Below are positions 22,084 to 50,200 of a DNA stretch of 64,000 nt, piece after piece. The notes under the pieces are model-generated. The model worked only from the letters and a program-made list of their open reading frames with translations, did no database searches and was not told the origin of the DNA. Source of the DNA: Neelides folsomi (taxonomy: Eukaryota; Arthropoda; Collembola; Neelipleona; Neelidae); contig JAQGBZ010000012.1 in the NCBI GenBank assembly GCA_034687125.1, positions 1 through 64,000 of the forward strand. The letters are read 5' to 3'. The stretch's first letter is position 1. Every line of letters begins with the position of its first letter. Both the position numbers and the translations under genes were made by a program.

Positions 22084-23238
22084 AACACTGAAGTCTTTAT
22101 CTGTCCTGTTTAATTTTCTATGTTAATTTATTTCCATTGAACACGCTTATAAAGAAATGTGGGCTTAAATGTTAACTTATTGGAAGTACAATATTTAACT
22201 CAATTTATTGCTCATTCCAATACCATTCACCAATTTAATATACTTTATACGTTAATTGTGATATTGAGTTCATAGATCTAACCGGCGCAATTGATTAATT
22301 GCGTTTCATCACGTTATTAAAACTATTTTGAATCTTGCTTATTCTTATTTTCATTACATCACATACACGAAAGTAATCATTGACAAAAAGGAAGAATATA
22401 CTTTACCTATAGTGCATTCACGGGGAATTTAGGTCTGAGTTATAGGATGGCCCCTGCATCTGCATTATTTAAATTTTGTTACCAACTAATCTGATCATTT
22501 TTATTAATGCACATGATGGGCCAATGTATAACTCAGACCTAAATTCCCCGTGAATGCACTATAATTTTAAAGATATTCGTTAAAACGTTGAATAGTTTTT
22601 ATTATTTTATGCTTTACGAATATTCCGAGCATTCTGACAGCAAGCTAATAATCGGTGAATGTGAAGTAACATTTGTAGCGCCAAGAATAAAATTAACTAA
22701 ATTAACTGTGCCTCTTTAAAAAATAAGATTTTCAATTAAAAATTATTTTTCTATCCATCAAAGATGAATAAATGAAATAAGATTCACTTTTGTATAATTA
22801 ATTTGTCTATTTAGTGAGAATCATCGTGTTAAAATCTGTGCAAGAAAAATTTGTACACTAAAGCATAAGAATTTGCAAATTTAAATAAACACAATTAACT
22901 ACTTAATTAATAGGGGGAAATGCAGTATTTTATTAAATATCATTAGATCAATATTGTAGATTTAAAATAAAATTAACTTGCTATTAAGAATTATGTCTCT
23001 GTGTATATAATACGTAGTGTTTATGATATAAAGAAATGAGATGCCAATATTTAATAGGGTTTTTATTATTAAATATTTGTATTTAAAATGTTTTTATGCA
23101 CCTTATATGATTTGATTTATTTTATTTTAAAATGATTATTAAATCAAGTATTGGGCGTGTATTATTGCTTAATATATGATATAACAGAGAAATAAATTTT
23201 ATATATTAAAAATTTTGATTTAATATAAGATTTTATCT
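22084..23238. other. intergenic with MITE-like palindrome
   Basis: Convergent 3' flanks of BLOC1S1 and ebony. The only clear structure is the long palindrome at 22408-22563. The rest is unstructured AT-rich sequence. Confidence 0.5.
22408..22563. mobile_element. MITE-like palindrome with perfect 37-base arms
   Basis: Bases 22408-22444 are an exact reverse complement of 22527-22563 (tatagtgcattcacgggg ... at both ends). Homology continues imperfectly inward (tggccc and tgcatt shared) so that nearly the whole 156-base unit can fold back around a loop of about 35 bases. The ends are tatagtgcattc / gaatgcactata. This would fit insertion at TA with TIRs like the Tc1/mariner type (gtgcattc), although family assignment from so short a motif is tentative. 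There is no coding capacity, so it would be non-autonomous. Identical arms suggest recent insertion or maintained symmetry. Confidence 0.7.
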
Positions 23239-26200
23239 TCAGATTCCTTCTCGTATTTGCATAACATCTCGTTTTCCATCAAGTGCAAGCGGCTTCCAAC
23301 AACAAGAGGCAACTTGATTATTAGGGGCCAAACAAAAGGGCATTGTTCCATCGCTTGACACAAACTTGTTCACTTGAACGGTTTGCAGATCCACATATCC
23401 TTGAATGCTTTTCCCGATTTGCTAATTAGTAATTAAAAAATTAAATCAAAATAAATAAATATTAAATGTAAAGTAAACAATGGTATAATATTCTTACAAA
23501 TTAACAACCAATGAAATAATGCACAAATAGGTTCTTATAATTTGTTATGAGTTGTCATACTATTGTAAGTGGGCTTGTATTGACTGTGAAAATTCCTTTG
23601 AAGCCAAATTGTTTTGCCAATCGAACATTTTCGCTTTCCATGAACTCGACAAGTGTGACATTCTCGGACTGTTTCAATTCAGGCATTGTTCCCAACATAA
23701 AGGCGTGCATCAGTTCTCCAACATTTTTGTAAGGCAATCTTTCTCTATCAATTCAAAATACAAGCCATTTAATTATGATTATAATTTTAGCCTAATAGAC
23801 GAAATGATAATTTATAAATAATTTACAAAATAATTTACAAAATAATTTACCTTTGTGGTCCTTCAATCTGTTCTAAAAATTCTAGAGCGTATGCGATTCC
23901 TTTTGAAACAACCATCGACTGAGGTTCGTCGTAAACGTCAAAATTACAACAAGCCGCTACTATTTGTTGGTCGGCATTTCTTCTTATAACAAAACTGTTA
24001 ATAAGAATAATTAGTGAGAATTGTGTAAAATAAATGGCTATTACGGATTTACAAATATTTACAAAAGAATTTTTTGGACAAATCAAAAATTGAATAAACA
24101 GACCTAAATTTTTTCTCTACGAGTGGGTCCCAAATAGAAGAAATCATATCAGCAAATTCGTTGTAAGTGGCAGAAGTCCATTGTTCTAAATCTCCCTTTT
24201 TACTAAAACTGGACGCAATAACTCTAAAATTTTATAATAGAACAAAAATTAAAAACAATATTGCATGTATTTACATAATTGCTGTGATATAATTTTGGCA
24301 AGAATTACTTTATGACATCAGGTTTAAGGTCATCGTTGAGTGGCTCTGAGGAATATAATGAATTTCTTTGAGTAAATTGAATCTTTTCCTTGGGGTCCTT
24401 GATATATTCAAGCTTCATTATGATATCTTTCATAGATTTCATATTTACAAAATCACTGATCTCTGTAAAATACATAAAAATTAGACGCCATTATCGAATA
24501 TGAAATAACTGTACTTATTGTTAAATAGAAAAATCTATAGTCAAAGAAAAATTGTCTAGAAACTTACTAATGTAGAGATTTTTCTCTCTCAATTTCAAAA
24601 TGATTAATATTGAATTCAATGAATTCCCTCCAAACTCAAAGAATGATTCACTCAAGTTTTCAGAAATCAAAGCCATCTTGACCCCAGAAATCTCTGACAA
24701 AATTTTAATAAAGATCTTGGCTCGATCGATATATCTTTCAGGTAAATCCAATTTATGCCATTCTTCAAAAGGTTTTTCTGTAAAAAAACCTTGTATTATA
24801 GTTCATTTTTTAGCTTTATAATTTTATTATTTACTTTCATTATCTTACCAGTTTGGCGAAAAGAGGCATAGTTGGTCAATAACTTTTGCCTATCCACTTT
24901 TCCATTAACGAGATATGGAAGACTTTCCAATATAACGACTTCGGGGATTTCATACTGACGAAGTTTAAGCTTCATAAGAGCTTCGATCTTTCCTTTAACT
25001 TCTTTCAATTCATTCTTAGGCACAATGAGTTTGTTTGGAACAATGCTTGCAACGATAGTCTGAAAATTTTAATAAATGATGAATGAGATTGGTAAAAAAC
25101 AAAGAATAATAAGGACAGGCATGGTTAGCAATGGCTCGTCTCGTCTCTTTTTATTTTTACTGAGGAGGGCTCGTCTAGTCTCTTTTCATAGAGACGAGAC
25201 GAGCCCAAATGAGCCAGACTTTTGTGAGCCATTGCCGGTCCTTGCCGAATAGTAAAGGAAATAAAATTATGTGACCAATGATCTTTGACTTACTTGATCA
25301 ATTTCTCCAGGATGATAGCATAGAACCGAAACTTTATCAACCATATCAAATTTAATTATGACTTGATGAATTTCATTCAAGTCAATTCTTTGACCTCTCA
25401 CTTTGAGTTGCGAGTCAATGCGTCCATCGTAATACAACGCACGAGCTCCATTTTTTTGTATGCCAATATGACCAAAATCGCCAGTTTTGTACAATACGTT
25501 AAAACCTTAAAAAGTAAAAATTTAAAGAGATGAGTACATGAGTACAATAAAATAAATATATAAAATATAATATTATAAAATACCAGAACTGTCGGAAAAC
25601 GGATTGGCAATGAATTTATCCGAATTCTGAAGGCCAACATAACCTGAACAAAGGTTATATCCTGCAATGTAAATTTCTCCAGATTTTCCAGCAGGGACAA
25701 TTTCCAATGTAGGATGTAAGATGTAAATCACGTTGTTATACAATGGAAAGCCTATCAAATTATATTTTTTATGAAATATTAATCAACATTAACTTAATTA
25801 TTGTAGCTTAATAAAGTTATGTAGTGGTTATAATAAGTAACAATAAGTATGACAGTATTTTATTTATAAAAATACAAAATGAAATATACCAAGTGGCACA
25901 AGTTTATTTTCCAATTTCAAAGCGATTTCAGTGTCGTTTCTGAAAATGTCATATGAGATGTCTCCCATGATCTCAGTACTTCCATAATAGTTTGCAACCG
26001 CCGTTCCTTTGGGCATTTTTTCAAAAAACTCAATGAGCATTGGTTTCAAAAGTGCTTCCCCGCTGCTGATCCAATATAAAACGCTTTTGAGCATATTTCT
26101 CCCCTTGTCCATTCCAATGACTTCCATTGTTTGGAAAATGGCTTGAAGGAGCGAAGGAACGAGAATTATCCGTGTGACTTGATCCTCGTTGATTTTAATA

Positions 26201-28073
26201 ATAAAGTTGAGTGGATTCGCCACAGTGGCTTTGGTGTAAATGAAAGTTGAAAGTCCACGAAGAAGCGGAGCAAAAATCTCTGACATGGAGTCAATGAAGG
26301 TCAAGGCTGTTTTGAAACACAATTTTTCGTCTACTTGGTATGGAAATTCCTTCCATTGCCAAGATAATCGATTCATCACAGTTCTGAAATATATCTCATT
26401 AATCTCATTATAAAAATTAAAGTCAAATTGTTTTACATCAACCATTAACATTTAAAGGCAAGTTATGATAGTTATTAAATCTAATCTAATTAAGTTTTAT
26501 GAAATCTTACTGGTGTGAAAGACGAACTCCTTTAGGAGTTCCAGTACTTCCAGATGTAAACAGAATTGTTGCAATTCTCTCATTAAATGGAGTACTTGTT
26601 CTCAAAATGTCTAATTCTTTCAAACTATTCACATTTTTGGCCGCTTCTTCATAATTGTCCAAACTTGGGAAAAGCCTTCCAATGTCATGAATGTACGTAA
26701 GTTCTTTTGAAGCGTTAAATTTATCCAGAAGGGCTAATTCAGTAAATACGGCAATTGGTCTTGTTGTTTGGCAAATGTGAGTTACACGATCTTCAGGGAA
26801 TGTTGGGTCAAATGGCAAATAAGCAGCTCCAAGTTTCAAAATGGCAAATAATGAAACAATGAGTTTGGCTGAATGAGGGAGACAAATTCCGATGACAGCG
26901 TCTCCGTCCGGATTGTTGATTCGGAAATTCTTTTTGTCGAGTATTTCTTTAATTGCGAGGGCAAGCTCGGTCGAGGCCAAGTCAAGTTCTAAGAAATTCA
27001 TCGTTTGAGTTCCGTCGACAATGGCAGTTCGGCTGCTATCGAACGCCCCTCCATAAAGTCCCGCCTGAAAATATTCCATGAGAGACGCCTTCCCGGGAAA
27101 TGGGCTGAGTGGTCCCAGGAGAATGTTTGGTTTTTGACCTTGAAAGTGTAATCATTCAATTTTAACAATAATCTCAATTAAGTAAATCCATAGACCGAAT
27201 ATACTCTATGTTCTGTATGCGTAACGTGGAAATTATGTAATATTTAGCTCTAGCATTCATTCGTACATTCTCCTTTGCAAGTTTTATAACCCACATCTCC
27301 GATTTTGGATTTCTCTTTGAAAAGGTTGAGAGCCGTTTTATACATACCACCAATGATACCATTTTCATCCTTCCTACTACCTTTAATAACATTTTATCAA
27401 CTTTTATTTTTAATGTAAATACATTATTTTTTAGATGAAAAATATATGATATAAAAGTTATACAGAATATGTGATAATATCCCACAAACTACAAATGATT
27501 GACAAGTTAGGTTTTATGAATACCCTTCTTTTTAATATCCTTTGTGGCCATTTTTAGTTCCTATTATTTCTTAAACTTATAATTATTTTTAATTTACAAT
27601 TTTAACTATACATCCTAATTTAAAAATTTTATCGTTGAATTTCCTCTTGGTTTGATTAAAATTGTATAAATAAGTTTTTCTCATAGCTACTCTTTATCAT
27701 TCTCTCTATAAATGTTTGTTTATTGGTTTACTCTTATGAACCTCCTTAGCATAAGCGCTCTCAAGAGTGAAAAACGCAGATTTTTTGTCCCTTAATTTTT
27801 TTTAAATGTAAGATGCATTGGGTGTGTGTGAGTATTACGTATGAGTACTCGTATTTAGTATGAGCAAATATAGAAAATACCTTCATCTTTGAGTTTGTGT
27901 GTATTTGGCTGAAATTGGAATGAAGTGTGGAGCAGAGCCTTCCATGCAATTTCCTCTGGATCCATTGGTAAATGGAGACGAATTGAATTAGCAGTGAGAG
28001 AGCTGTTCGGTTCAGACCACTTCTCTCCTTCGACTGAAGAGTGACGAGTTAACCCTCTCAACCTCCTTGTCAT
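23239..28073 (-). CDS. ebony: ebony: beta-alanyl amine synthetase (NRPS-like), intact
   Basis: Activates beta-alanine as an adenylate, loads it on a carrier domain and joins it to dopamine, histamine or other amines; in insects it acts in cuticle tanning and photoreceptor transmitter recycling. Twelve exons (28073-27881, 27138-26511, 26383-25890, 25751-25584, 25505-25294, 25059-24849, 24777-24568, 24462-24309, 24223-24104, 23994-23851, 23744-23561, 23421-23239) give 966 residues. Adenylation motifs are intact: LFTSGSTGTPKG (about 255-270), ALTFIDS, YGSTEIMGD, YKTGDFG, DSQLKVRGQRIDL, NGKVDR with the catalytic Lys at about 619. The carrier domain has FGGNSLNSI (Ser about 688, the phosphopantetheine site). 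The C-terminal amine-selecting domain (DLEQWTSATYNEF, GIFTVNTSPLT, FVSSDGTMPF) clearly follows Drosophila ebony (879 residues). The extra length is mainly a basic N-terminal exon. A diverged paralogue lies 4.7 kb upstream, beyond PDSS2. Confidence 0.95.
25112..25246. repeat. fold-back repeat in ebony intron
   Basis: Within the intron between ebony exons 5 and 6, ggctcgtctcgtctct (25133-25148) is an exact reverse complement of 25190-25205. A second, direct near-copy (gggctcgtctagtctc) begins at 25168. The outer flanks also pair imperfectly (ggacaggcatggttagcaatggct with agccattgccggtccttgcc). Probably a small fold-back or MITE-type element. Confidence 0.6.
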
Positions 28074-29485: not shown

Positions 29486-31262
29486 TTATTCAATTTTTAA
29501 AGAATTGACAAAATCTTTAAGAATTTCTTTGGCTTTTTCATCTCCATCAACTTTCAATTTGGAAAGATAGTCCAATGTGTCATCCTGAGTTTTATGGAAT
29601 ATGGTTAATGATTTATTCATAACTTCTGTGTCTTCTTTCACTTTCGTAAATATCTGTAGATAAACAATAAAATAAGACATAACTCATGCATGAAAAATGA
29701 ACATGTTAATACTTAATAATAAGTAAATGTTAACATGTTCATTTTTTCATGCATCTTGAGAAATCTGTTACAGCTCCTTAATATGGTGAGTTTTCATAAA
29801 ATAAACGTTTAAAATATCAATATTCACCTTTGGAAAAGGATCATTCAAAATAATTGGTTCTTTTTCACATTTAAGAACAACAGGAAGAAGGTTGAGATTG
29901 AGCCAACCGGGTTCTTTCAATTCATCTTTTTCAAAAAACTTTAAATCCCCATAAGCCTATTTAAATTACAAAAGCACAATTAACAAAATTAACCAATTCT
30001 AGCCTAAAGAAAAGGTGTTTAGTTATTATATTAACAAATAATAACCTGCAATAAATATCCAAACATGGTTCCAATCTTCGAAGCTTCATTCACTTTTTTA
30101 TCTCCAAACCCACTGAAGTGCAAGTTGAGGTAAATCATGTTCCTCAACAGAGTTGAAATTCCAAGTTGTGTTCTCAACATCCATTGGTCATATGAAAATT
30201 TCATTTTAAGAGGTTCTTCAATTCCAAGAGTAAATTCTCCTTCGCAATAATCGGCAAGAGTGGAACAAATGACATCCGTGGCGACGGAACTTTTCAACGC
30301 TGCCATTTGGACGCATTTCTGTGTAAGGAGCAAATCTCCAACAAGTGTCGTCGCTTTGTTCGCTCTGTGAAGATCAGCCAGGAGCTCTTTAATGCTTTTA
30401 GTGCTTGTTGCGTCAAGTGGAAGGCCGTGCGGAAGGACACGGTGAGTATCCGAAATGTTGATCACACGGGAGTGAATTAATTGAGTCACGTAAGCAATTT
30501 CAGCAATCAACGACACCCGTTTATGCCTAATAAACGATTTCATTTGAATATGAATTAAGAGTTATTTAATAATTATACAAGTATTACTGATACTTTATTT
30601 GTAGTTAAAGGACATAATGGAAATTTATGAACCTTTCAAGCATAAAATCAAAGGTTTCGGATGAAACGTTCTTCATTTCCTTTGAAATCCCAAACATGTC
30701 TGTTGCGAGCATTACAACCATTGATCTCCATAATGGAAACAAAGGAAGAACTTCTTCAATATTTCCTTTATGAGTTTCAGCTTCAACAACTCTAAAATGA
30801 ATAAAAATACGAAATGAATGCAATTAAACCTTAACGCAACAAGTCAATTTAATGAATCAAAAGAGAGTATGCAGATACGCATAATATATTTAGGTATACA
30901 GGTAGGTTTAAATTTTGGGTAAATAAAATTAAATCATACTTTGTTAAATGAAGAACAGGATGATCAATATGATTAACTTTAAGTAAAAACAAACTTATAA
31001 TTTCTCTAAATCTTCCAAATGTCTCAGACAGTCCATTTTTTCGAGAAAATCTATTCGGTCCGAGAAACTCCTCCGCTTCAATTAAAACTTGATACGGGGT
31101 TTTGGCAATTTCTGATCCTTTCACACTCCTTCGATTCCTCACAGCACTCAACGGCGGAACATTTACTGTTGAATACAACCGTTGTTGAAACCGTCCTGTA
31201 ATGATTTGAGGGAGTTTCAAACTATTTTGAACGGATCTGAAGACACTCCCTAAATTCCACAT
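29486..31262 (-). CDS. PDSS2: decaprenyl diphosphate synthase subunit 2 (PDSS2)
   Basis: Regulatory subunit that pairs with PDSS1 to make the long isoprenoid tail of ubiquinone in mitochondria. Five exons (31262-30940, 30791-30633, 30526-30046, 29956-29828, 29653-29486) give 419 residues, near the usual size. The first 35 residues are Arg-rich without acidic residues (FRSVQNSLKLPQIITGRFQQ), a mitochondrial targeting signal. Polyprenyl-synthase helices follow: HPVLHLTK, LAEIAYVTQLIHSRV, LVGDLLLTQKCVQMAAL, ASKIGTMFGYLLQAYGDLK. The aspartate-rich DDxxD catalytic motifs of the active subunit are absent, as expected for PDSS2. The poly(A) signal AATAAA overlaps the stop codon (GAA TAA A). It lies between two ebony-type genes on the same strand with no known functional link. 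Confidence 0.88.
29686..29754. repeat. near-perfect hairpin in last PDSS2 intron
   Basis: Bases 29686-29709 and 29730-29754 are reverse complements except for one extra T (atgcatgaaaaatgaacatg against catgttcattttttcatgcat). The 20-base loop contains a further small palindrome (tacttaataataagta). The stem would be about 24 base pairs. It could be a tiny fold-back element or a small hairpin RNA in the intron. Confidence 0.65.
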
Positions 31263-32802
31263 TTTCTGGACAAAATTTTAAGAAGAATTAAAAAGAGCTG
31301 AGGCAGAGTGTGGGTGTCTGGAAGAACGAACCGGTTCCTTTTTTCACTTCTGTACCTTCCTCTCCTCTTCTGCATCTCTCCCCATTATCAAATATTCTCC
31401 TGAAGATGGTTTCGCTTTGGGCGGATTTGCCTCCTCAAACAGGCCAAAGCCACAGGTAAATGAAGTTCAGGTGCTCTCTTGGTGCATTCTCTGATTCAGC
31501 TCTTATATCCGTTCTTCACAGCATCATAGCATTTTTTTTCATTTTTATTATACACACACAACTACCTTTAAGGTCGCAATGGTGTGTGTATAATAATAGA
31601 GAATTAGAGAATGAGTCTTGGGATATGTATATGTTAGTATTATATCGAGTTGCATCGGGGTATCATAATGCTATGGTAGAATAATTGACCGAAGCGGTGT
31701 GTTGAGCATTGGCAATGTTATGTGAGAGATGCAAAGTCTGGAGATCCAATCTCTCCCTATGTTTTGTGTAATAAAAAGAAGGAGTTCTCCTCCGGTCCGT
31801 CTCCTTCATATCATTTTGTTGTTGAATCTCCTGAGGAAGAGATGGATTATCATTATAATGCATGAAGGCAAAAGAAAAAAGTTCCCCTTCGATGGCCAAG
31901 GCCTTTATTTATCATTATTCATTTGATTATGAAGCAGAAATCTTTTTATAGCACGGAAGAATATATCCTCGGGCATATTTTTATATCACGGGCTCAAGAA
32001 TGAAGTGGATAATAAACGCACGTTGGGAACGATCCGCTTGTTAGACAAATCCTCTTGATTATATGCTATGATTCGTGTCAAATTAAACTCATTGTCGAAA
32101 GTGGAAATGTGAAGGATTGTTAAGAAAATGAAAAATGCTCTGTTTTACTACTTTTTAGTATTTCAAACTTCTTACATGATGAAAAATATGTAACAAGTAA
32201 TAATGCAGAAGGGCATTTTTTTAAATTTAGTGCCATACATTTTAAAAGGTTAAATCAATTAAAAATTGATTGATTTCAAGATGCCATATCCTTTTTAAAG
32301 ACAATTAATTCTAATTTAATATAAATCTATCAGCGACATTGTTACCAAGTTTGGATATAAAAAAATTTCATTGTGATTCGATGTCATGAGTTATGAAGAA
32401 AAGACTCAAAACTTAGAAGTTTCTAATAGTACAAATATATTATAAGGTGTGGTGATCTCATAAACTTCGTAAAATGCGATTGAGTAAAATAACTACCTGT
32501 CATTATAATATGAAATGAATGCAAATGTAATTATGTTATGCATATTTGAGAAATTAAAGAAATTGCAAATGAAATACAAATAATGAATATTTAAAATTCT
32601 TCATTATAATGGGGATGAAATCTTTCAATTATCACAAGGGAGCGAAATGAATGCTTTTTCACACAATCCATTCACCCTGGAAATTCCGCAATTTTATTGT
32701 TGGAATATGAAATACGTACATAAATATCATAAAGCTAAAATAATAAGTACGAGTATTTAATAACAAAATTGATCACGGGGAAAACGACCCATTTAGGCTA
32801 CA
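31263..32802. other. intergenic, no gene seen
   Basis: About 1.5 kb between PDSS2 and the ebony paralogue, both on the minus strand. Short ORFs occur (for example 31460-31684 plus) but have no family resemblance or splice context. Probably contains the PDSS2 promoter at its left end. Confidence 0.45.
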
Positions 32803-35800
32803 CTATTTAAATAAAGAAGTTAATCTTGAACGCTTTACGTTGAGAATGCATGCGGAGATAGTGAGCGAATCAGGAGCCAAATGGAAGGGTTGAAATGAAT
32901 TTTCTGGCATTCCTGCACTGAACTGATTCAATTGATATTCGTCGAAAAGTTCAAATCCATGTTCATTCAAACAGAGATGCTGAAATTAAATGAGTTTAAT
33001 TTTGCATTGAGTATTTAAATATGAGAATATTGATGGAAAAATAAAGAAAGCATTTTATTATAAAAATACCCGTAATAATAGATTTGAAGTCATTGTAAAG
33101 ATTTTTTTGAATCCATGAATCTTTGCCAATTTAATTGTTTCAGAAAGAAGAGTGGCAACGGCAGTGACATTTTCGCTTGGGGCCATTTCCGCTGTTGTGC
33201 CCAGCCATGCAATGACAAGAGTTTCTTTGGCATAACTGGAATTGCTAATTCTAAATTAAAAAGATTTGATTAATATTTTGGTCATTAGTAATTTGGAGTA
33301 GAGAATTTGATTTGAAATGTTTAATTTAAACTTTGAATTTTTTTCTATCTCTTGTTGAATTTGGTAAATCCATCTTGATTTAGGAATGAAAGGTTGTTGA
33401 AAAATGTCATAATTGAAAATTGCAGCGGCACATTTCCCGTCTTTTCGCACGACAAATGACAAATTGTGATCAAGGAGGAATTTAAAGTTCTGGGAAAACA
33501 TCTCTTTGTACGTTTCCTTTGTAGTGATATGAAATTTCTGCACTGTGCCTTTTGTACAGTAAGCCTCGCTCATTAACCTGAAAAAAGAACATTAAAAGCC
33601 ATTATTATATTGACATATTGTCTTAATAAAAATAATTTTATAATACTCAATTGCATCCTTTCTGTCTTTGTTATCCAAAGGCTCTACTGTGTATTGAGTC
33701 ACGTAATCAAATAAGAGAGAGACGTCGATATGCTTGTTCATTTTGTTCATTTTGTTCAAAATCGCCATCATTGAACCCGCATTTAAGAAATCACTCATTG
33801 CTACATGATAAAAATAAAAAAAGGATTAGATGAAAAAATTTCAATTCATTTTGTTGATAATAATGAATAACTATAATATGATATTTAAAAATGTAGTCTA
33901 TTTAAAAGGATTTCGATTTACTTATCAAGAATCGTTTTTTGTTAAGGTACAAAACAATATTAATGCAATTAAGAGATGTTCCTCCAAGCTCGTAATAACT
34001 CAAGTGCATGAATTTTTGTGCAGAAGATATTGGGATTCCCACATATTTATACATTGCATCAAGAAGGATTCGACGAGCTTCGGTTTTTTCAGGAAGAGCC
34101 TCTTGATTTTCCCCAGTCTCTTCTTGGTACGTAACTAAAAGATCAATTACATTTATGACAGCTAAAAGTCTTAAAAGTATGTTAAAGAAATTATTAGAAA
34201 AGAAGTGAATAAATTTACGATCAATTCGATCTTCTTCGTAAATAGCAATCAAATCTTGAGGAATGACATGGCCATTTGGAAGTTTGGGAAACTCTTCAAG
34301 AACGACAACTTCAGGAATCCACAATGGAGGTAATTTATCTTGAAGCATTATCAAAACATCATAATTTTTCAAGCTCTTCATACGATCTTTGTTCGGAAGG
34401 ATGAAAACGACAACAGTCTTAACAAGGAAAATAAATTACTTGTAAGTACCAACTAAATTTTTAAGTCTATTTAAATAATTTGTGTGACAGTTTCAAACAC
34501 GTAAATAATGTTTTTGCTTATTACTTCGTCGATTTTCCCTTGATTGTAAGGATAAATTTGAATTTCTTCAGCAACGTCAAATTCCTTAATGATCGCCCTT
34601 AAATCCGAGACAACGATGGGAATTCCTTTAATTTTAATTTCTCCTGGTCGTCCTTCAATAAGCAATCTCAGTCTTCCATTGTGTTTCACAAAACGGCCAA
34701 AATCTCCAGTCCTCACAAGTATTTGGAAATCTATTCAAAAGAAAAATTAACGAGTCTTTCTAACAGAACATGCAGTGCAACCAGTAATTATCTTATAGCC
34801 ATGAATAAATTCATACTTGATGTTTGATCCGTTAAAGCATAAGGATTAACAACAAAAGTCGGATTTTTGACAAACAAAGGGTGATCTGCTTTGCTCTTTG
34901 ATGCAGCATTTACATAACCAAGTGAAGTGGGAATGCCCGTAATGCAAATTTCTCCCAAAACTCCAACATCTTCCCTTTCCAAGTATGGGCCAAGGATGTA
35001 AACTTTTGAATTATAAATCGTATTTGCTAAAAACAAAATAATTAAATCTTGTCAAATAAATATAATATATAAACAATAACAATACCATTAAAGTTTAATT
35101 AATGTAGAACTTTGTATTTGATTTTTTAAGAGTATTTTTGCTAAATTACCTAACAGAGTTCTTCCGTATAAATTTGAATTAAAGAATGATCGTGTCGAAT
35201 TAAATTTCTCCATAAAAACATCTCCAGTTAGCTCGGGCCAACCGTAAAAATTGTAAAAAGTCTTTTTGTCTCCAAAATACTCAAAGAACCATTCAACGTG
35301 TTCTCTTGGAACGATTCCTCCAATACAAACCACGTCTTTGAGATTCTTCAACAGCGCTTTCACTTCTCTCTTATCGAATGCCTCCACAGCATCAAGAAAT
35401 TTCCACAAGTAGTCTGAAGCAAAGTGAACCATTTCAATTTTCTCATCTCCTAAACTATTGATGAATTTCTCAGCATCTTTCATGTCGTCTAATCTGTAAA
35501 GTCGAACTTCCGTTCCGTTCAAAAGAGGAGCAAAGATTTGGGCCAAAGAATCAACACGAAAAATGGAAGCGATTAAAGCTCTCGGTGCGGATGTTTTAGA
35601 TGTCAAATGATTCCAATTGTAATGAAGGGAGTTAAGAATTGAAACATGGGAGATTCGAATGAGGACTGGATCAAGTGCTCCGCGAGCATGGAAAATTACT
35701 GCTGGTCTTTGAACTGGAGGTGTTGGAATTGGAGTCACTAATAATAAAACGCCAATTAATGATTAATTTTAACAAAATTTAATTTAATAAATTAATAACG

Positions 35801-36671
35801 GTAAAACTTTTTATAAGGATTAACGATATTAAATTTACCCATGATTTCTGGTTTTCCCATTGTCCGTTTCCAACTTTCTTCTCCAACTTCAATAACAGGG
35901 GCCAAGTCCAGCATCACTTTTTCCAGAGTTACAATTTTTGCTATGTTGCTGAACGCTTCAGTGTTGAATTTCTTAATCAATTGTCTAAAAGTTCAAAGAT
36001 ATTTTTTTTAAAAATATTAACAAATAAAGATAAAAAATAATTATTAAAGTTCTGTAGCTTCTGCAGTAATATCTTTTAGTATAACATTAAGTTAAATGAT
36101 GGTTAGGTGTGTAAATGATCTTACGAATTTTCTTCAGTAATGATAAGAATTGGTTTAACTTCAGAGAGTATTTTGAATGCTAAAGATTGAGGGAATTTGG
36201 GGTTGATTGGAATATACGCAGCTCCCATTTTCATCACGGCAAAGATGAGTAAAATGAATTTATCTGACATTGGCAAATAAATGGCCACGACGAGTTCTCC
36301 ATCAGGATTCTTTGTCCCAACTACTCCAATTTGATCCTGTAGAATGAGAGAGATTGCGGTGGATAAGAAATGGAGCTGGCCAAATGTGATCTTCGTTTTT
36401 TCGAATTTAAACGCGACTTTCTCTTTGATGTTCGGATTTGATTCGAGTAATCTTTCAAGCATATTTGGAAGAGTAATCAAGTCCTTTTGCTTCAATTTGT
36501 GCGTTTTTCCACTCAAACAATTTGATTCGCTTGCTAAAATTTATTAAAATTAATGCTAATAATTTTTATAATAATATTATATTTATTTACTTAAATTCAA
36601 AAGGCCAAGTTATTAATTAAATGATTCTTACACCACTGAGAAAAATCGAGGCATCCTTTGAAGCAAGCCAT
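32803..36671 (-). CDS. ebony paralogue with degraded adenylation motifs
   Basis: Same layout as ebony (adenylation, carrier and C-terminal domains), but key adenylation residues are changed. Twelve exons (36671-36632, 36533-36125, 35984-35839, 35737-35150, 35026-34817, 34730-34525, 34417-34219, 34134-33922, 33800-33647, 33577-33332, 33250-33070, 32979-32803) give 922 residues with no stop or frameshift. The ATP-binding loop TSGSTGxPKG is replaced by FHARGALDPVLIRISH (about 213-228). YGSTE is YGWPELTGD, and the A8 region reads EGRPGEIKIKGIPIVV. The catalytic lysine of NGKVD is lost (NGHVIP, His about 583). The ribose-binding RTGDFG and the carrier serine (YYELGGTSLNCI, Ser about 653) are kept. 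The C-terminal domain is recognisable but diverged (TMTSNLLLRHL where ebony has TNTSPLT). Intact frame over twelve exons argues for a functional, possibly non-adenylating protein rather than a pseudogene. Confidence 0.88.
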
Positions 36672-37086: not shown

Positions 37087-38941
37087 TTAATATTCTTGGA
37101 CATCAATTTGACGTCTCAGTGGCATGACTTGAGCATCATCAATTGAAATCGCTTGCATCTTCACATTGATCGCCTCTTCAAGCTCAATTTGATTCCTTTG
37201 AAGATTCCGAAGAATGATTCTTGATTCAAGAATTTTTTTATTCAGCCTGGCTTGAGCTTCATGAAGTTCTTGGAGCTCCAGAGCTAAGCGCCGTTGAACA
37301 GCGTCACTGAAAACAAATTTTATGAATTGTTTAAAACAACATTTTAATTATAAAGAGCTAAAATTTAGGTAATTTATAGTTAATATTTTGAAAAATGTTT
37401 CAAATTATTACTTGACATTTTCTAATCCTGGGCGTTTTTTCCGTAACTCAAATCGCGTTTCAGCAAGAGCGACATTCCCAAATTTTTCTTCAAAAGACTG
37501 ATTAAGAAGACAAATGGTTTCTTGTATCTCCCGAACTTTAACTGTTGTCTAAATAATTTAAATAAAATGTCGAAATACTCTAAGTTTGGTAAATAATCTT
37601 ATTAGATTTTACTGGTGATTTATTGTTTATTTATTTTGCAGTGAAATATGATTTTAAAATATTTACCCCTGAATGTTGATTTTGGAGCTTATCTTTGGCT
37701 TGAACAATTTCTCTGATTCGTTTTTCAAGAGCAACATTAGTTTTGCAAACTTGAGCTTTGAGATCTTCGCAGATTTGTCTAAGAATGCTGTCAGTGTATG
37801 AACGTAGTTGAAGCGAAGCGTTAATTTCCTTTTCAGCATTTAGCATTCTTTTTCTCGTCTCATCTTCATAGCCAGCCTCATCCACATTACTAATCATTTA
37901 AGATATTTAATTATGAGTAATATAATTAATAATTTATTACAATGATTTTTAACCTATTTCTCACAAAACAAAGATGAGTTTTATTCTTAAACTAAACAAT
38001 AGTGAAAAAATGAAACAAACCTTTCATCGAAAACACAGACACAACAGCTTCTCAACACATCTTCTCGGTGAATATTGAGCCCATAGGCTTTCTTGTCAAT
38101 GTCAACTGCAATGTCTTTCTCCACTAAACCCCTATTCAAGTTGAACTTTGCTTTTCTGAGTAATCGGAGAGTTTCGGTGATTTGCTCAATCGTCCGTTTC
38201 AGGATCATGTCAATACCATCAATGACTTTCATCTCATGAATGAGTTCCTTCTGAGCTACATCATGAGTTAAATCAATTCCACAACGGCAATCTCTATAAA
38301 ATTAAATCATAAGAAATTAATTACTTATAATTATTTATATAGTAATTAATTAGACATTAATTGCGGAATAATGAGTTATTTACATTAAATAAAAATTTTG
38401 AATTAGAAATTATTTTGAACCTTAGAGCAATAACTTCCGAGTTGACTTGAAGTGTTGCACACAAAGAGGATTGAGCGTGTTCAACTCGTCGGCGGTAAAT
38501 GAGCCCAGCGTCAATTTCATTATTCAGATCAGCGAATTTTCTTTCTTGTTCATCTCTCCAATGTTGGGTATTTGAGATTCTCTCTTGGAGTCCAAATAAA
38601 ACATCTTCCTCGGCTTTCTGAATCGATTCAAATGTTTCGTCTGCAAGTCGAGCAGCTTGGGTTTGACAGTATTCAGAAGTTTGTCGTTCCCCTTCGACGG
38701 CATTTTCCATGCGTTTGAGATGAAGGAGCCATTCTTCATTTGTGAATTTCGGCGGTGGATTGGAGAATTTTGCTTTTCTATAAATCACACAGATTAATCA
38801 AGTTTTAGTTATTTTATCATTTTAAATTTAACAAGATAATATCTGATTTTGATTTAAATTATTTTACCTCGAAACCCACTCGCCTTCCAAAGTACGACCA
38901 TCGTTGGCGTACGGAAGGACACACTTCATTTGTTCAGCCAT
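37087..38941 (-). CDS. TEKT1: tektin-1 family axonemal protein
   Basis: Coiled-coil filament protein lying inside the A-tubule of ciliary and sperm-flagellar doublet microtubules. Six exons (38941-38868, 38777-38421, 38293-38021, 37889-37667, 37548-37412, 37306-37087) give 427 residues, the usual length. It is almost wholly coiled coil. PPPKFTNEEWLLH near the start, RCGIDLTHDVAQKELIHEM in the middle, AKFNLNRGL, and IDDAQVMPLRRQI near the end all match tektin-1 best among tektins. The conserved loop RPNVELCRD of the family is altered to RPGLENVKN, with flanking heptads kept. Expression is expected in ciliated sensory neurons or sperm. Confidence 0.85.
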
Positions 38942-39811: not shown

Positions 39812-42800
39812 ATGACATCCCTCAGTGGAAGCAAGTCAGTTGGTAAATTATTCAATAGACTTTTAATTTTCCCATTACTTTATGTGTTTATACTTGAATG
39901 TGTGAGCGGACAAAATGGGAATAAATCTCCGAGTTTCTTGACCGGTGGAGATTTGTACAAGTTTTCTATTTATGAAGATACACCTGTTGGTTCTGTTATT
40001 TACAGGTGAGTTTCTTTTTTAATCACACTTTAAATTACAGTTAATTAATCATTTCCATTTTATATACTAATTATTTTTAAAAGATTTGTAAAATTAATAT
40101 ACATGTTTATTCAATTACAGGCTTAAGGGGTTGGATCCGGAAGGTGGGGTTTTAACTTACAGTATCAGCGGTGAATATTTTCGGGTAAACAAGAAAACTG
40201 GAGATTTGACTCTCATTAAAGAATTGGACCGAGAGACGGAGAGTTCAATCGATGTCATCATAAGTTTAACAGGTCAAAATGAATATTGGAAAAAAACTTT
40301 AAAAAATTCTCATGAACTCAATTACTCCACTTTCTTATTCCCACACTATTTATTCAATTATTCTGTTTCATGTTCAAAATCACATATCTTTATCATTACA
40401 ATCTATTTATTCTAACTACACACACTTTTAAGTTAATATCACTTTTCATAATAACAATAATACCACGTATACTTATAGTACTAATGTACCATATAAATTG
40501 TATGTGTAATTTATTTCTAAATTCCCACTTGCATGAACTCTAATAATTTCTCTTTCATTTTTCTTTCCATGACCTATAGACGACGGGGGTGGATCCGAAC
40601 CACTCACTTTCTCCCTAAGACGTGAATTGACCATTCTTGATAGAAACGACAATCCGCCTGTGTTCCACCGCCGTCCTTATTCAATTAAAATATCTGAAAG
40701 AACCGCCGTTGGGTCGACAGTCTTCTCCGACCTCACAATCACGGATGCTGATGAAAGCTCCAATAGCGAAGTGACCCTCACTTGTGCAGAAGATGAAACT
40801 CCATTAGGATGTTCAACATTTAGCATTTCTGTTGAAAAAGTAGGAGATGGGAAATATATCGGGATCATTACGTTGGCATCTCCGCTGGATTTCGAACAAC
40901 ATTCCTCTTTTTCTTTAACTCTGAGGGCGACGGATGGAAAAAATGAAGCCAAGGCTCTGGTCGCTATTACAATTTTAGACGTTCAGGATCAAGCTCCTAA
41001 ATTTTTAGGAGGCGAATATGTTTTTAAAGTCAAGGAAAACTCTCCACCTGGAACCCGCGTGGGGGAAATTTCCGTTCAAGATGGCGATACTGGAAATCCA
41101 CGGGATTTACAAATTCGTCTTATTGACGACTCTGGAGCAAATTGTTTCAGATTGACTGCCGTAAGAAGAGATCCATTCAATGGAGCTTTTTCGGCTGTTG
41201 TTGAAACCACAGAAAATATACTTGATGCTGAAGATGAGCTGATTCGGGAAAACTTGGGAGTTTATGAATTGACATTAGAAGCTCGGGAATTTCCCTTGGG
41301 CCCAGAAGACGGTGAACCGACGTTGGTCACACGGACGAGTTTGGCCATTGTTGTTGAAGATTTGGATGATCATATCCCAATGTTTAGTCCCTCAAGCTTC
41401 TCAAGAGTTTTTTCAGTTCCTTTTACACCAAATGAGTCTTACACATTCCCGGACTTTGCTGTGAGCGTCGAAGATGGAGATGTTGAGCGGATTCATTCAA
41501 AATTCTCTTTACAATTTGAATGGAGTTTGGTGGATTCACCAATCGACCCAAATGACATCTTTTCTTTTGTCACTCCACAAAATGATGTTCCAACTATTCA
41601 GTCCAAAGGAATGATTACAATGGAAATTGGGAATGTTTCAATGCTCCAACCTGGATTAACATTTGACCTTTATATTGTAGCTATTCAAAACGATCATCAT
41701 ATTGTGAACAAATTGAATGTTCCTATTGAAGTTGCCCGAGGACCGAAAATCCTCCCAACCTTTAATTCTACAGTGATGAGAGTCACAGTTTCTGAGAGCT
41801 TGAAAGAAGGAGATGTGATTGCCAAAATAGCTGCCAAAAATCATGATCAAATCCCGTCAGTTAAATATTCATTGATTGGAGTTGGAGCTGAGAAATTCAA
41901 TGTTGAGGAGAAAACTGGGAATATTTTATGCGCAAGGAAAAATTGCCTAGATTTTGAAGAAGAGAAGAGTCATTTTTTCTTAGTGAGAGCTAAAGCAGGA
42001 AGCGGAGTTGAAGACGAAGCGTTTGCTCTCTTTTATTTGGACGTTGAAGAGGCCAATGACAACACTCCGGAATTTGTTCCTTGGCCAGGAACTGGAAAAA
42101 AGAATAGCGAACTTCGACGATCTGTTCAAGATGGAACTTTAGTTTTTGATCCACCATTTATTGTTAAAGCTAAGGATTCGGATCTCAATGATCGGATAAC
42201 TTACACTGTGGTCGATAACACTGCCAATAACTCAGGAATCACAATTGATTCTGAAACTGGCGAGCTTTTGCTTCAAAGGCCACTCAGGTAAATTAAAATT
42301 CTTAATAATAAAGTAAAAATACTTTAATTTATTAGATCACTTCACAAGATCAGCTTATTCATTGCCTAATTGATTACATTTTGGATTTTTCATCGAATGA
42401 TTAATTTTTAATTATTAGATGGGCTGAATCAGGTGAACATAAATTGGTGGTTACAGCGACTGACAAAACTGGGAAAGCTTCAATCCAACAAGTTCATTTA
42501 GTTGTTCAAGCCGTCTCAAATCTTCCTCCAAAGTTCTCGTTCAAAACCCATCGGATTGAAGTACCTGAGACAAAACCATTGGGCAGTGTGATTTTCAAGG
42601 CGGCGGCTCATGACCCAGATGGACAAGATTCCGAGATGAGATATGAAATCCAATGGCAGCCCGAACCAGATCTTTTCATTGTAGAGGAAAAATCGGGAAT
42701 TGTGCGAATCAATGGGAAATTGGACTATGAAGACAAATTGAGTCAATATGAGTTGAAATTGCGAGTGACGGATGTTGGGAAACCGCCTGAGTCCGCCGTG

Positions 42801-45282
42801 GCTTCTTTGATTGTGGCAATTGTGGATGAAAACGATGAGCTTCCAGAATTTTCAAAGAAGAATTATTTAGCTGAAATGAGCGAATCTTCAATGCCTGAGA
42901 AATCCGTGTTGAAAGTAGAGGCAAGAGATAAAGACGAAGGAGCTGAGCTTGAGTTTTCATTATCTTGTCCATGCCAAGTTTGGGACGCATCCGGGTCAAT
43001 GGGATCTTACGAAGATGCAAATACTGCCTTTAATAACTTTAGAATTGACAAAGATTCTGGGCAAGTTATTTTATTAAACTCGATGGAACATAAGAAAACT
43101 TCAGTAGTGGAATTTAATGCAATTGTGAAAGACAACAATGGAATCTCACCACAAAATGATACAGGTGATTAAAGCCTACTGAAACCATTATCCTTGTACC
43201 ATTCTCACAATAACGTTTAACCTCATTTTAATTTTTTAATATTAATTATATTAATGATTAAGTTAGATTCTATTATAATAGATAATTAAATGTGGTACTG
43301 TGTTATAGCCATCATATCAATTTACATCTTGGCTGCTGAGAAGAATAAACCGATTTTCGGTCATCCATGGACCACAGGAAATCCTTGGATTAATTTGACA
43401 ATTCCTGAAAATATCGAGCCCGGGAGTACCGTTGTCACCCTAAATGCTTGGGATTATATCGCCGGTATTTTATATATTATTTACATGTTTGAATTTATTA
43501 AAGATAGTTTATTCATCACTTATAGTGTGGTTTTTTAAATATGTATATGAAAGTATATGTTACTAAAAATACATTTCTACATTCACAGATATTCCGATTT
43601 CTACCTTCTTATTGGAAAAGGGAGATGACATCAAACAATTTACACTTGAAAATAATGAACTTAAAGTTTCTACCCCTCTTGACTTTGAAGCACAAAAAAT
43701 CTTCATTTTAGCAGTCAACGCTGAAGATTCTCGTGGTGGGGAATCTACAGCTAACTTGGCTATTACTGTTTCTGACCACAATGACAACTCTCCTGTATTT
43801 TCTAAAAGAGTAAGATTATTAAACACATGATATCATCTTTCAATATAATTCTCTATTATGTAATAATATGCTAAAAATTTAAAATGTGGATTATATAGGA
43901 ATACAAAGGAAAAATTGTAGAAAACTCTGAATATCCAACGCCGATTTTAACAGTTGAAGCAAGCGATCGTGATGATCCTGAAAACTACGGCGCTGTCCGT
44001 TATCGTCTCACTGGCCCAAACAGTCATTTATTTACAATTGACGAATTGGCCGGAGTTGTTCAAGTAGCTCCTGGTGCTTTAATCGATCGTGAGAAAGACA
44101 CCCAACATTTATTGACAGTCATTGCTTCAGACACTCCCCAAGGCGGACCATTCCAACTCCAATCAACGGCCACTATCAACATAACCGTAACAGATGTGAA
44201 CGACAATGAACCTTCATGCACCATCGGAGAAGAACTCCTCGTTGGAGAAAGCGAAGTTGTTGGAAAACAATTCGGGAACATTTCCTGCATTGATCTGGAT
44301 GAAAACCCCAAATTGACATTCACAATTAAAGATTCCAACGGTTTGTTTGGAATTGAATCCACCACTGGGAAGTTATTTGTTGCAAAGTCGCTCCGAGGTC
44401 GTGGAAGGTCAACGCCCTACACCCTCGACATCTTAATTGAAGATGGCAAGGAAAGAACAAGCCTTTTGTCAATTCCAGTCAAAGTCACAAATTTAATTCC
44501 GAATGATGGAAGGCCATATTTTAAAAATGATAATTTAACTGCCTTCATTTCTGAATCTGCTCCAAGAGGATCGCCAGTCCTTTTGCTCAAAGCTGAAGAC
44601 AGTGATTCGTACGATAATGGAGAAGGGCGTTTGATATTTAAAATGTTAAAGCAAATCTATCCATGTCAGAGTAAGGTCGGAAGCAGAGCGGACATGCGAG
44701 ACGTTGACATTTTCAGATTAGATGAGCAAACTGGTTTATTAAGCACAAGAGAGAGCATCGATAGGGAGAAAATGGATTGCTTTTCTTTGTTGGTCTCCGT
44801 TGAGGATTTTGGAACTCCGCCGCAGAGCCAGAGCCAATGGTTTGAAATCATCGTGTCTGACATCGACGACCAGTTGCCCAAAACTCCCAAGATATTGAGA
44901 ACGACCCAAGTGGCCATCAATGAGAGTTCTCCGATCGGAACTCCGATATTGAACATCACATCTGAAGATGAAGACATTTATCCAAACAATCAAGTTACCT
45001 TTGAAATATCCGGAGGTGGGAGCGATTTTGTTAAAATTGTTCAAGATAACTATCAGAATGCAACTCTTATATTGGATGGAGATTTAAGGAAATTATCTCA
45101 TGATTCGCTAACTGTGGTAAGCAGTAAAACAAAGTTAATTTATCAATGCATTCGTTAAGTATTTTATAATACAAGTATTTTTAAATCTCTCAAATGAATC
45201 TCGTTTTTAGGTGATCAAATGCTATCCCAAGGATAAAAAAATTTCACTGCCTGAATGCGTCTCAAAGGTAAACTCAACTTTT

Positions 45283-47225: not shown

Positions 47226-50200
47226 TTATTCGTCGAACTTAATAGAGTTAACTTGAACGGAGATGTTTCCACCTCGATACGAACCGCGCTTCTTCTTTGT
47301 TTTCTCATGCCGGAAAGATTTGCCTCTTGTATTTTTAAGATCGCTGTTCGCCTTCTCTCCCCATGATCCCCTCGCTCCTCTCTACAAACATAATTCCATT
47401 TAAGTAACAAATATCGTTCCAATCTCAATAATTACACTACAAAAGAGAAAATAAAACAAACCGGCAAGATTTTTCACTTACAATCTATAATATAATCTAA
47501 TCGAAAGAAATCTTCTTATTTTGCAGAGGTGCACTGCTATCAAATCCTCCGGTCTTAGCAAAGCTTCCCCTAGGAGCTCCAAAGCCTCTTCCACCTCCTC
47601 GGTCTCCCCCTCGTCCCCCACGGAATCCTCCGCCTCGACCTCCACCGCGATCTCCAAATCCTCCTCGACCTCCACGGTCACCAAATCCTCCTCGACCTCC
47701 ACGATCTCCGAACCCTCCTCGTCCTCCGCTGTCACGTCGCTCAAATCCCCCTCGTCCGCCTCCACGATCGCCAAAACCGCCACGTCCTCCTCGGTCGCCA
47801 AATCCTCCACCTCGCCCACGACCGAATCCTCCGCGACCTCCACTGTCTCTTCTGTCGAACCCACCGCGACCACCGGAATCTCTTCCAAATCCTCGACCAC
47901 CTCGGAATCCTCCACGTCCTCCAAAGCCGCCTTCACCTTCCTCTCCTTCTCCATTCTCTTCGCCTTCTCCGTCCTGCAATTGACAGAGAACTCAGCCTCA
48001 AACGAATTGCATTTTTATAATTCCCAAACCATTTCAAATCAATTTCAATTTAGACTTATTTTTAAAGAATTTCTTCGAATGAGAAATGAGCTTTGCAAAT
48101 TGCAGGACGGATCTCTTTTACAATTTCTTTTACCAATCAACTAATTTTCAACTAACTACAAAATCTTTCCAAAAAAATATTGCCGGTTTGTTTTTTGATA
48201 GAGAAAACGTCTTCCATTTTACAAAACTCACTTTAGCTTCGAAGGAATTGTCTTTGAGTCGTTGGTCAATTTCCACTTCCTCTGCTTTGACACGTCGGAA
48301 GGGCGTAGCCCCTGAACGTTTCTCATTCTCCAAACTCAGATTCATACTCTAATTTGTTATAGAATAAGTGAGTAGAATTGAATTATACAAGTCATAATTT
48401 GAATTGATTTGCAATGAAATGATTGAATTGATTCCCATAAATCATAATATTTTGTCAAAAATGAATGTTTCAAAATATTAAAAAAAATGTACTCACATTA
48501 TTAGTAGAATGAAATCCGTTAGTTGCTGGTTTCTTAATGACCATTTCCTCCTCTTCGGACTCTTCCTCATCATCGGAACCCTTTTTAGCCTTCTTTGCTG
48601 GTGGTTGTTTCAAAGCTGGTTTCGCATCTTCTTCAGAATCGGTAGAATCTGAAGATTCGTCTTTCTTGACAACTTTATTGTTCGCTACAACCGCAGGTTT
48701 CGCCGGTGCTTTTTTAGGCTCATCATCTTCAGAATCTTCAGAATCGGACGATTCGTCTTTCTTTACAACTTTATTATTCGCAACAACCGCAGGCTTCGCA
48801 GGTGCTACTTTTTTCGGCTTATCTTCTTCAGAAGAAGAATCCGAGTCAGAAGAGTCCTTTTTCTTAGCAGGTGCTTTGAGTGGTGATTGTTTTACAGGTA
48901 GAGCTTTCTTTGAAGCCGGTGGCTCATCATCGGAAGAATCATCATCAGATGAATCTTCTGCGGCTTTCTTTGCTGGTGGTTTCCCTGCTGGTGGTTTTGC
49001 TACTGCTACTGGTTGTTTCGCAGCTGGTTTAACTTCTTCTTCAGAATCAGATGAATCCGAAGATTCGGCTTTCTTTGCAACTTTATTATTCACCACAGGA
49101 GCAGGTTTCGCCGGTGCTGCTTTTTTGGGCTCGTCATCAGAGGAAGAATCCGAGTCAGAAGAGTCCTTTTTCTTAGCCGGGGCTTTGATTGGTGATTGTT
49201 TTACAGGTTGGACCGGTGCAGCTTTCTTTGGAGCCGGTGGCTCATCATCGGAAGAATCATCAGAAGAATCTTCTTCAGCTTTCTTTGCTGGGACCGCGGC
49301 CTTTGCGACAACTGGAGATTTAGCGGGCACGGCCTTAGGAGCCGGCTTCTCGTCTTCAGAAGAATCAGAGTCATCGGATGACTCAGCCTTCTTCGGCGCT
49401 GCTTTAACGACTGGCTTCGTGGCCGCAGGAGTCGGAGTAGGAGCGGCCTTCTTTGCCGGCTTTTCATCTTCTGAAGAGTCAGAGGAATCAGAAGATTCCG
49501 CTTTCTTTGCTGGAGCCTTCACAGCTGCCTTTGGAGGAGCTGGAGCTGGTGTAGTTTTAGCCTTAGGTGCTGGTGCTTCATCTTCCGAAGAGTCGGATGA
49601 GTCTGATGATTCCTTTTTAGCCTTTTTCGATGGTGTTTCAGTAGGAAAAGAAATGCGTCTCTTCATCGGCGCAGAACTAACAAAAGGATTATAACGGTCA
49701 GAGATATTTTTAAGATAATATATGCGTTATCCGATAATCGGCTATTCAATATAATGTAATTTTATGAAATTAAGATGATGTTATAAAGTAAATGTATTAT
49801 AAAATTATCAATTTTAAAATTAAGACTCATACGATTGGTATTGATTAAAAACATCTTGAAGCGAAGGTGACCCTTTCGGCAAGGCGGCCTAAAAATTAAA
49901 ATACTCATTAATATCGAACATTAATCATTGCATATACTAATCCCGATATATTTCTCCACAATTAAAAGAAAGTTGAAAAAAATCCTTCAATATCAACGAA
50001 GAATTTGTGAAATCGCATCGGGTCCCACGCCGCATTGGTCCCATCATGGCTCCATTGTAGGGCCATGCCATGTGCCATGCTCGATCCCCAAATACGCATT
50101 TAAGGTCAAATGATGCGTGTTCCTTGACACATTGGGGTTATTACTTACAGGGTTGGCCTTAGCCTTGAAGAGGTCAGCGGCATTTGAAGCGGTCTTCTTG

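Follow-up and report, generated by a model that had tools for sequence, protein, structure and literature searches.

Gene B, one of two ebony-type genes in the window analysed here (a stretch of 64,000 nucleotides from Neelides folsomi), is read with moderate confidence as a doubly inactive pseudo-Ebony that has been kept by selection, perhaps as a partner, in a carrier or binding role, for the Ebony encoded by neighbouring gene A. Ebony conjugates dopamine and histamine to β-alanine in arthropods, and in the Drosophila melanogaster enzyme (beta-alanyl amine synthetase) the domains are arranged in the order adenylation, carrier and amine domain. Gene B is of the full-length Ebony type, with adenylation, carrier and amine-condensing parts. 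Judged from its sequence, the product by itself most likely performs neither adenylation nor condensation; both this inactivity and the partnership with Ebony A are what we infer. If the reading is correct, gene B would represent a natural experiment on an NRPS scaffold without catalysis, and its product would be a candidate for regulating an enzyme that clears neurotransmitters.

The window is located on contig C12 of the assembly (75.1 Mb, 840 contigs). For an arginine kinase exon, a two-domain taurocyamine kinase ranked first by E value with its score spread over two stretches, followed by single-domain arginine kinases with up to 187 bits in a single stretch (4bg4 is from shrimp), which makes an arthropod source probable. 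Splicing of gene B from the window yielded 12 exons on the minus strand (36671-32803) comprising 922 codons plus a stop codon, and reproduced the 12-exon paralogue with an open 922-residue frame that had been described in the initial annotation. Its eleven introns are of the GT-AG type and 69 to 140 bases long. With a GTAAG donor at exon 1 a clean reading frame was obtained, and the donor of exon 10, GTTTAAAT, is the least typical among the eleven. Splice sites were chosen by hand with gene A in view. The spliced translation also contained the four motifs singled out before, namely the substituted ATP loop and A10 as well as the retained GGTSLN and RTGDFG. As the changed ATP loop and A10 are both situated in mid-exon, they are not artefacts of the splice model. 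All features are listed in the table.

Features of genes A and B in the window, with the basis on which each was placed
Feature	Position	Strand	Basis
Gene A, intact Ebony, 11 exons, 882 residues, canonical adenylation motifs	23239..27079	-	splicing
Gene B exon 1 (start codon)	36632..36671	-	splicing, GTAAG donor
Gene B exon 2 (adenylation domain, A1/A2)	36125..36533	-	splicing
Gene B exon 3	35839..35984	-	splicing
Gene B exon 4, 588 bases (altered ATP loop, A4 pocket, A5)	35150..35737	-	splicing
Gene B exon 5 (A6)	34817..35026	-	splicing
Gene B exon 6 (RTGDFG kept; A8/hinge altered)	34525..34730	-	splicing, motif columns
Gene B exon 7 (A9, A10)	34219..34417	-	splicing
Gene B exon 8 (carrier domain)	33922..34134	-	splicing
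Gene B exon 9	33647..33800	-	splicing
Gene B exon 10 (amine domain; TVQKF in place of DLEQW)	33332..33577	-	splicing, alignment
Gene B exon 11 (TSNLLL for NTSPLT, about 33073-33090)	33070..33250	-	splicing, alignment
Gene B exon 12 with stop codon	32803..32979	-	splicing
Altered ATP loop, residues 214-224 (FHARGALDPVL)	35661..35693	-	2 of 10 invariant columns kept; positions hand-counted
Retained pocket pair Val260-Asp261, beta-alanine type	35550..35555	-	motif columns; positions hand-counted
Altered A10, residues 581-585 (NGHVI, Lys to His)	34262..34276	-	splicing, motif columns
Carrier motif ELGGTSLN, residues 648-655	33968..33991	-	best-kept 8-residue window; positions hand-counted

The adenylation domain of gene B is recognized by PF00501 (AMP-binding; residues 50-432, E 1.8e-28). 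In its ATP loop, which lies inside exon 4 between aligned flanks, FHARGALDPV is found where gene A has FTSGSTGTPK, and NGKVD of A10 in gene A is replaced by NGHVI. The ATP loop (A3), the A8/hinge block and the A10 lysine are adenylation motifs with established roles. Gene B keeps 45 of the 76 columns that are invariant in A, fly Ebony (partly verified sequence) and five bacterial domains, with 2 of 10 kept in A3, 4 of 9 in A8/hinge and 2 of 4 in A10. Taken together, A3, A8 and A10 retain 8 of 23 invariant columns compared with 37 of 53 for the remaining columns (Fisher p 0.006; A3 alone, p 0.013); A3 and A10 had been named in the initial annotation while A8 was added to the group in this analysis, and damage to the A8/hinge block extends the earlier list. 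In the A5 motif, the Ser-Thr of gene A is Trp-Pro in gene B; B retains all four A5 columns that are invariant, along with the TGD of A7. Because both the ATP loop and the lysine of A10 are lost, the product of gene B would very probably be unable to form an adenylate, in line with the earlier proposal that it cannot activate β-alanine itself.

Comparison of the amine domain of gene B with PDB returned Drosophila Ebony (6dym; E 1.3e-5) as the sole match under 0.05, the next being at 0.074; for gene A the match to 6dym had an E value of 1.6e-43. In this domain B keeps 30 of the 82 columns common to A and the fly sequence. The motifs DLEQW and NTSPLT, present in A and fly, read TVQKF and TSNLLL in B, with E686 of A replaced by Q, and T821 (in NTSPLT) by L. 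Both belong to nine listed windows in which A and fly agree but B differs; the list also contains VFKTALTF, VDKAIVLC and other stretches without known catalytic role. The claim that the C-terminal amine domain remains was thus borne out for the sequence of the domain, but not for the DLEQW Glu and the NTSPLT segment. The insect arylalkylamine N-acetyltransferase Dat is of the same fold class as the C-terminal domain of Ebony. In a tentative mapping, we take Glu47 of Dat to correspond to the DLEQW Glu, and Ser182 and Ser186 to the two Thr of NTSPLT; at these three places B has Gln, Ser and Leu, whereas A and fly have Thr at both serine places. Glu47, Ser182 and Ser186 are proposed as the catalytic triad of insect Dat in PMC7427786. 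On this analogy, a catalytic role may tentatively be assigned to E686 and the NTSPLT residues of Ebony, and the changed residues of B are probably located at the active site of the amine domain.

The exon structure of gene B resembles that of gene A. For eight of the ten introns in gene A, gene B has a counterpart that agrees in phase and lies at most three alignment columns away, six of them at the exact place, and none of 20,000 random placements was as good (best random score 4). Gene A was consulted when the splice sites were set by hand, which makes this agreement partly dependent on the model. Identity to A amounts to 28% over the whole of B and to 23-35% across its four parts. Compared with the partly verified sequence of fly Ebony (24.9% identity over 811 columns), B shares the domain order, the amine domain match of 1.3e-5 and seven of nine pocket residues, but differs in the ATP loop, A8/hinge, A10 lysine, DLEQW and NTSPLT.

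A tree was calculated from eight rows consisting of A, B, fly Ebony and five plasmid-borne adenylation domains of bacteria. Verification of the fly sequence covered 207 of its 879 residues, which were checked against a PDB chain. In this tree, A, B and fly grouped with a support of 100/100, and A and B with 94/93. The end branch of B is about four times longer than that of A (3.4 vs 0.83). Forcing A together with fly and B outside costs 7.3 log units (p-AU 0.047), and an older origin of gene B with this topology is only marginally rejected. The grouping of A with B and the cost of joining A with fly indicate that gene B, a long branch, probably arose by duplication of ebony in this animal's lineage. 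Protein searches of the assembly for a third ebony copy returned exons of genes A and B and otherwise weak matches, i.e., on C227 with B as query (0.055), and on C75 (1.9e-5) and C278 (3.3e-5) with A as query; the latter two are AMP-binding matches as well. Four scans of viral and genome contigs, with either A or an alignment of A and B as query, confirmed no relatives among 69, 21, 209 and 188 pattern matches, and plasmids gave no match to the amine domain of gene B at E values up to 0.01. A cyanobacterial adenylation domain from a Gloeocapsopsis dulcis plasmid (L048; pocket V D W V I S L A D) scored highest in bits against Ebony A among the 12 listed plasmid matches, and is a possible bacterial relative of the adenylation domain of Ebony.

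Neutral decay was simulated from the coding sequence of A with an assumed AT-rich equilibrium and transition bias (n = 60 per level). The frame stayed free of stops in 11 replicates at 0.01 changes per site and in 6 at 0.02, but in none at 0.05, 0.1, 0.2, 0.5 and 0.8; at 0.5 changes per site, sequences had a mean of 41 stops and were 36% identical to the start. Gene B is 28% identical to A, and its 922 codons include no stop. By codon position, A and B have an identity of 0.43, 0.55 and 0.35, and the GC content of gene B by codon position (0.45, 0.32, 0.35) is similar to that of A, with a value of 0.20 in the B introns. A pairwise codon model rejected omega = 1 (2dlnL of 115 with 857 codons and of 91 with the 502 reliable codons). 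The omega estimate is close to saturation, combines the two branches and is biased downward by an alignment that favours identity, so the case for selection rests on the stop argument. The suggestion that the uninterrupted 922-residue frame reflects selection is therefore supported, both by the absence of stop-free replicates at 0.05 or more changes per site and by the rejection of omega = 1.

Ser653 in the carrier motif ELGGTSLN is presumably the phosphopantetheine site of gene B. Six of the eight motif residues are identical in A, B and fly, and seven are identical to A or fly. Within the carrier domain the motif is enriched in such residues (7 of 8 vs 25 of 77 columns like A or fly, p 0.001); on the scale of the whole protein, 293 of 2,000 shuffles reached a window of 6 of 8 or more. 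Overall, 18 of 77 carrier columns are identical to A, and PF00550, the carrier family of Pfam, matched one of the two proteins but not B at E values up to 1, a setting at which HMMER filters drop most weak matches. A phosphopantetheinyl transferase domain was found in the genome. Regarding the substrate pocket, we take Val260-Asp261 to be positions 235/236 in gramicidin synthetase numbering. At the nine pocket positions B agrees with fly Ebony seven times (background 98 of 378, p 0.0015), including Asp at 236 and 331, with A three times (p 0.47), and with A or fly seven times (p 0.017). The hydrolase Tan of the Ebony pathway, presumably PF03417, was not found in the genome by an exon-by-exon search, which may miss it.

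A scenario compatible with these data would start with a duplication of ebony, after which gene B would have become a pseudoenzyme. From established enzymology, B alone would neither activate β-alanine nor condense it with amines. Its carrier serine might still be phosphopantetheinylated and its pocket might still bind a small β-amino acid, although both steps are less sure. Most likely, B would function non-catalytically as a carrier or binding partner, either modulating the adjoining Ebony A or being loaded by it. Such a partner role is favoured by the carrier arm site, which is the best-kept site, and by the transferase domain in the genome; the motif alone would mildly favour loading in trans or partnership with Ebony A. 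Four observations count against this reading: (i) the four parts of B diverged to a similar extent, as expected if the whole protein were relaxed; (ii) the carrier motif is not exceptional as best window in the shuffles; (iii) the pocket of B resembles that of A at only three of nine positions; and (iv) B is not matched by PF00550, and Tan was not found.

We offer tentatively that the two genes form a pseudo-NRPS, in which a catalytic Ebony is accompanied by a dead Ebony that has a loaded carrier arm, binds β-alanine and acts in trans as carrier or regulator of amine conjugation. The most specific version of the partner role, according to which A loads β-alanine onto the Ser653 arm of B and the amine domain of A then uses it, is likewise possible but doubtful. 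It would be consistent with the canonical motifs of A, the transferase domain and the rank of ELGGTSLN as best-kept 8-residue window of B, but has to contend with the poor conservation of the remaining carrier domain, which Pfam does not recognise. That B is instead an enzyme with new chemistry, using another activated donor or working without ATP, while a substrate pocket and an amine-type domain persist, is unlikely. While a long selected frame on a fast branch, pocket residues like those of fly Ebony, and the kept A5 columns and A7 TGD would suit such an enzyme, both probable active sites of B have lost residues that A and fly have in common, and Trp-Pro occupies the A5 Ser-Thr place.

It is also quite unlikely that B is a pseudogene, silenced so recently that no stop codon has arisen so far. 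Damage to both active sites agrees with this possibility, and in the simulation a short neutral phase (0.01 or 0.02 changes per site) left some frames intact; yet most of the divergence from A must have accumulated under constraint, and coding composition and all eleven pairs of splice sites are intact. Finally, the model of gene B could be wrong at the motifs, with the canonical ATP loop or A10 residing unseen in a different exon or frame. This would be conceivable with hand-chosen splice sites, but is very improbable. Both motifs lie in uninterrupted exons with aligned flanks, and a splice artefact there is ruled out by their mid-exon position and by the introns common to gene A. Inspection of the three minus-strand frames by eye revealed neither a canonical loop nor compensating frameshifts masking one, and a DNA search of the assembly for a second copy, allele or haplotig of gene B returned only the window itself. 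A doubly inactive pseudo-Ebony kept by selection is the preferred reading.

With pseudoenzymes in general, gene B shares a kept fold and frame, the loss of catalytic residues and an active paralogue in the same genome. No Ebony pseudoenzyme was found in the literature by title or start of abstract, a scope that excludes most subscription papers. A survey of NRPSs in animals (PMC10531068) places platyhelminth Ebony-like NRPSs in a cluster with Ebony; passages of it describe no inactive paralogue, and its main text contains 'inactive' and 'duplicat' 0 times. The phrase 'two ebony' has four hits in PMC10184908.

The coding regions of gene A (start at 27079) and gene B (end at 32803) are 5.7 kb apart and not 4.7 kb as stated in the initial annotation. 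Between them lies another minus-strand gene (about 29486-31277) whose N-terminus looks mitochondrial by eye; of two exon peptides scanned against Pfam, one matched polyprenyl synthetase weakly, with 16.9 bits against a cut-off of 27. Upstream of the first ATG of gene A, an open frame with a possible splice acceptor, as seen by eye, extends over 27080-27151, and a further 5' exon may exist; the 24-residue stretch encoded there had no Pfam match. Hairpin-like inverted repeats noted by eye 3' of gene A (22400-22600) and in its intron 4 (25130-25240) are possibly small mobile elements. A tektin gene is located upstream of gene B on the minus strand (37087-38797; Pfam matches in 37987-38301 and 38357-38797, remainder by eye), and there is a cadherin-repeat gene on the plus strand (40573-45158; Pfam match in 40573-42291, remainder by eye). 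In region 47478-49726, three frames were scanned without a Pfam match; several frames are open on both strands, and tandem repeats of 27 and 96 bases are present, the units of which suggest a low-complexity RGG and acidic-serine protein.
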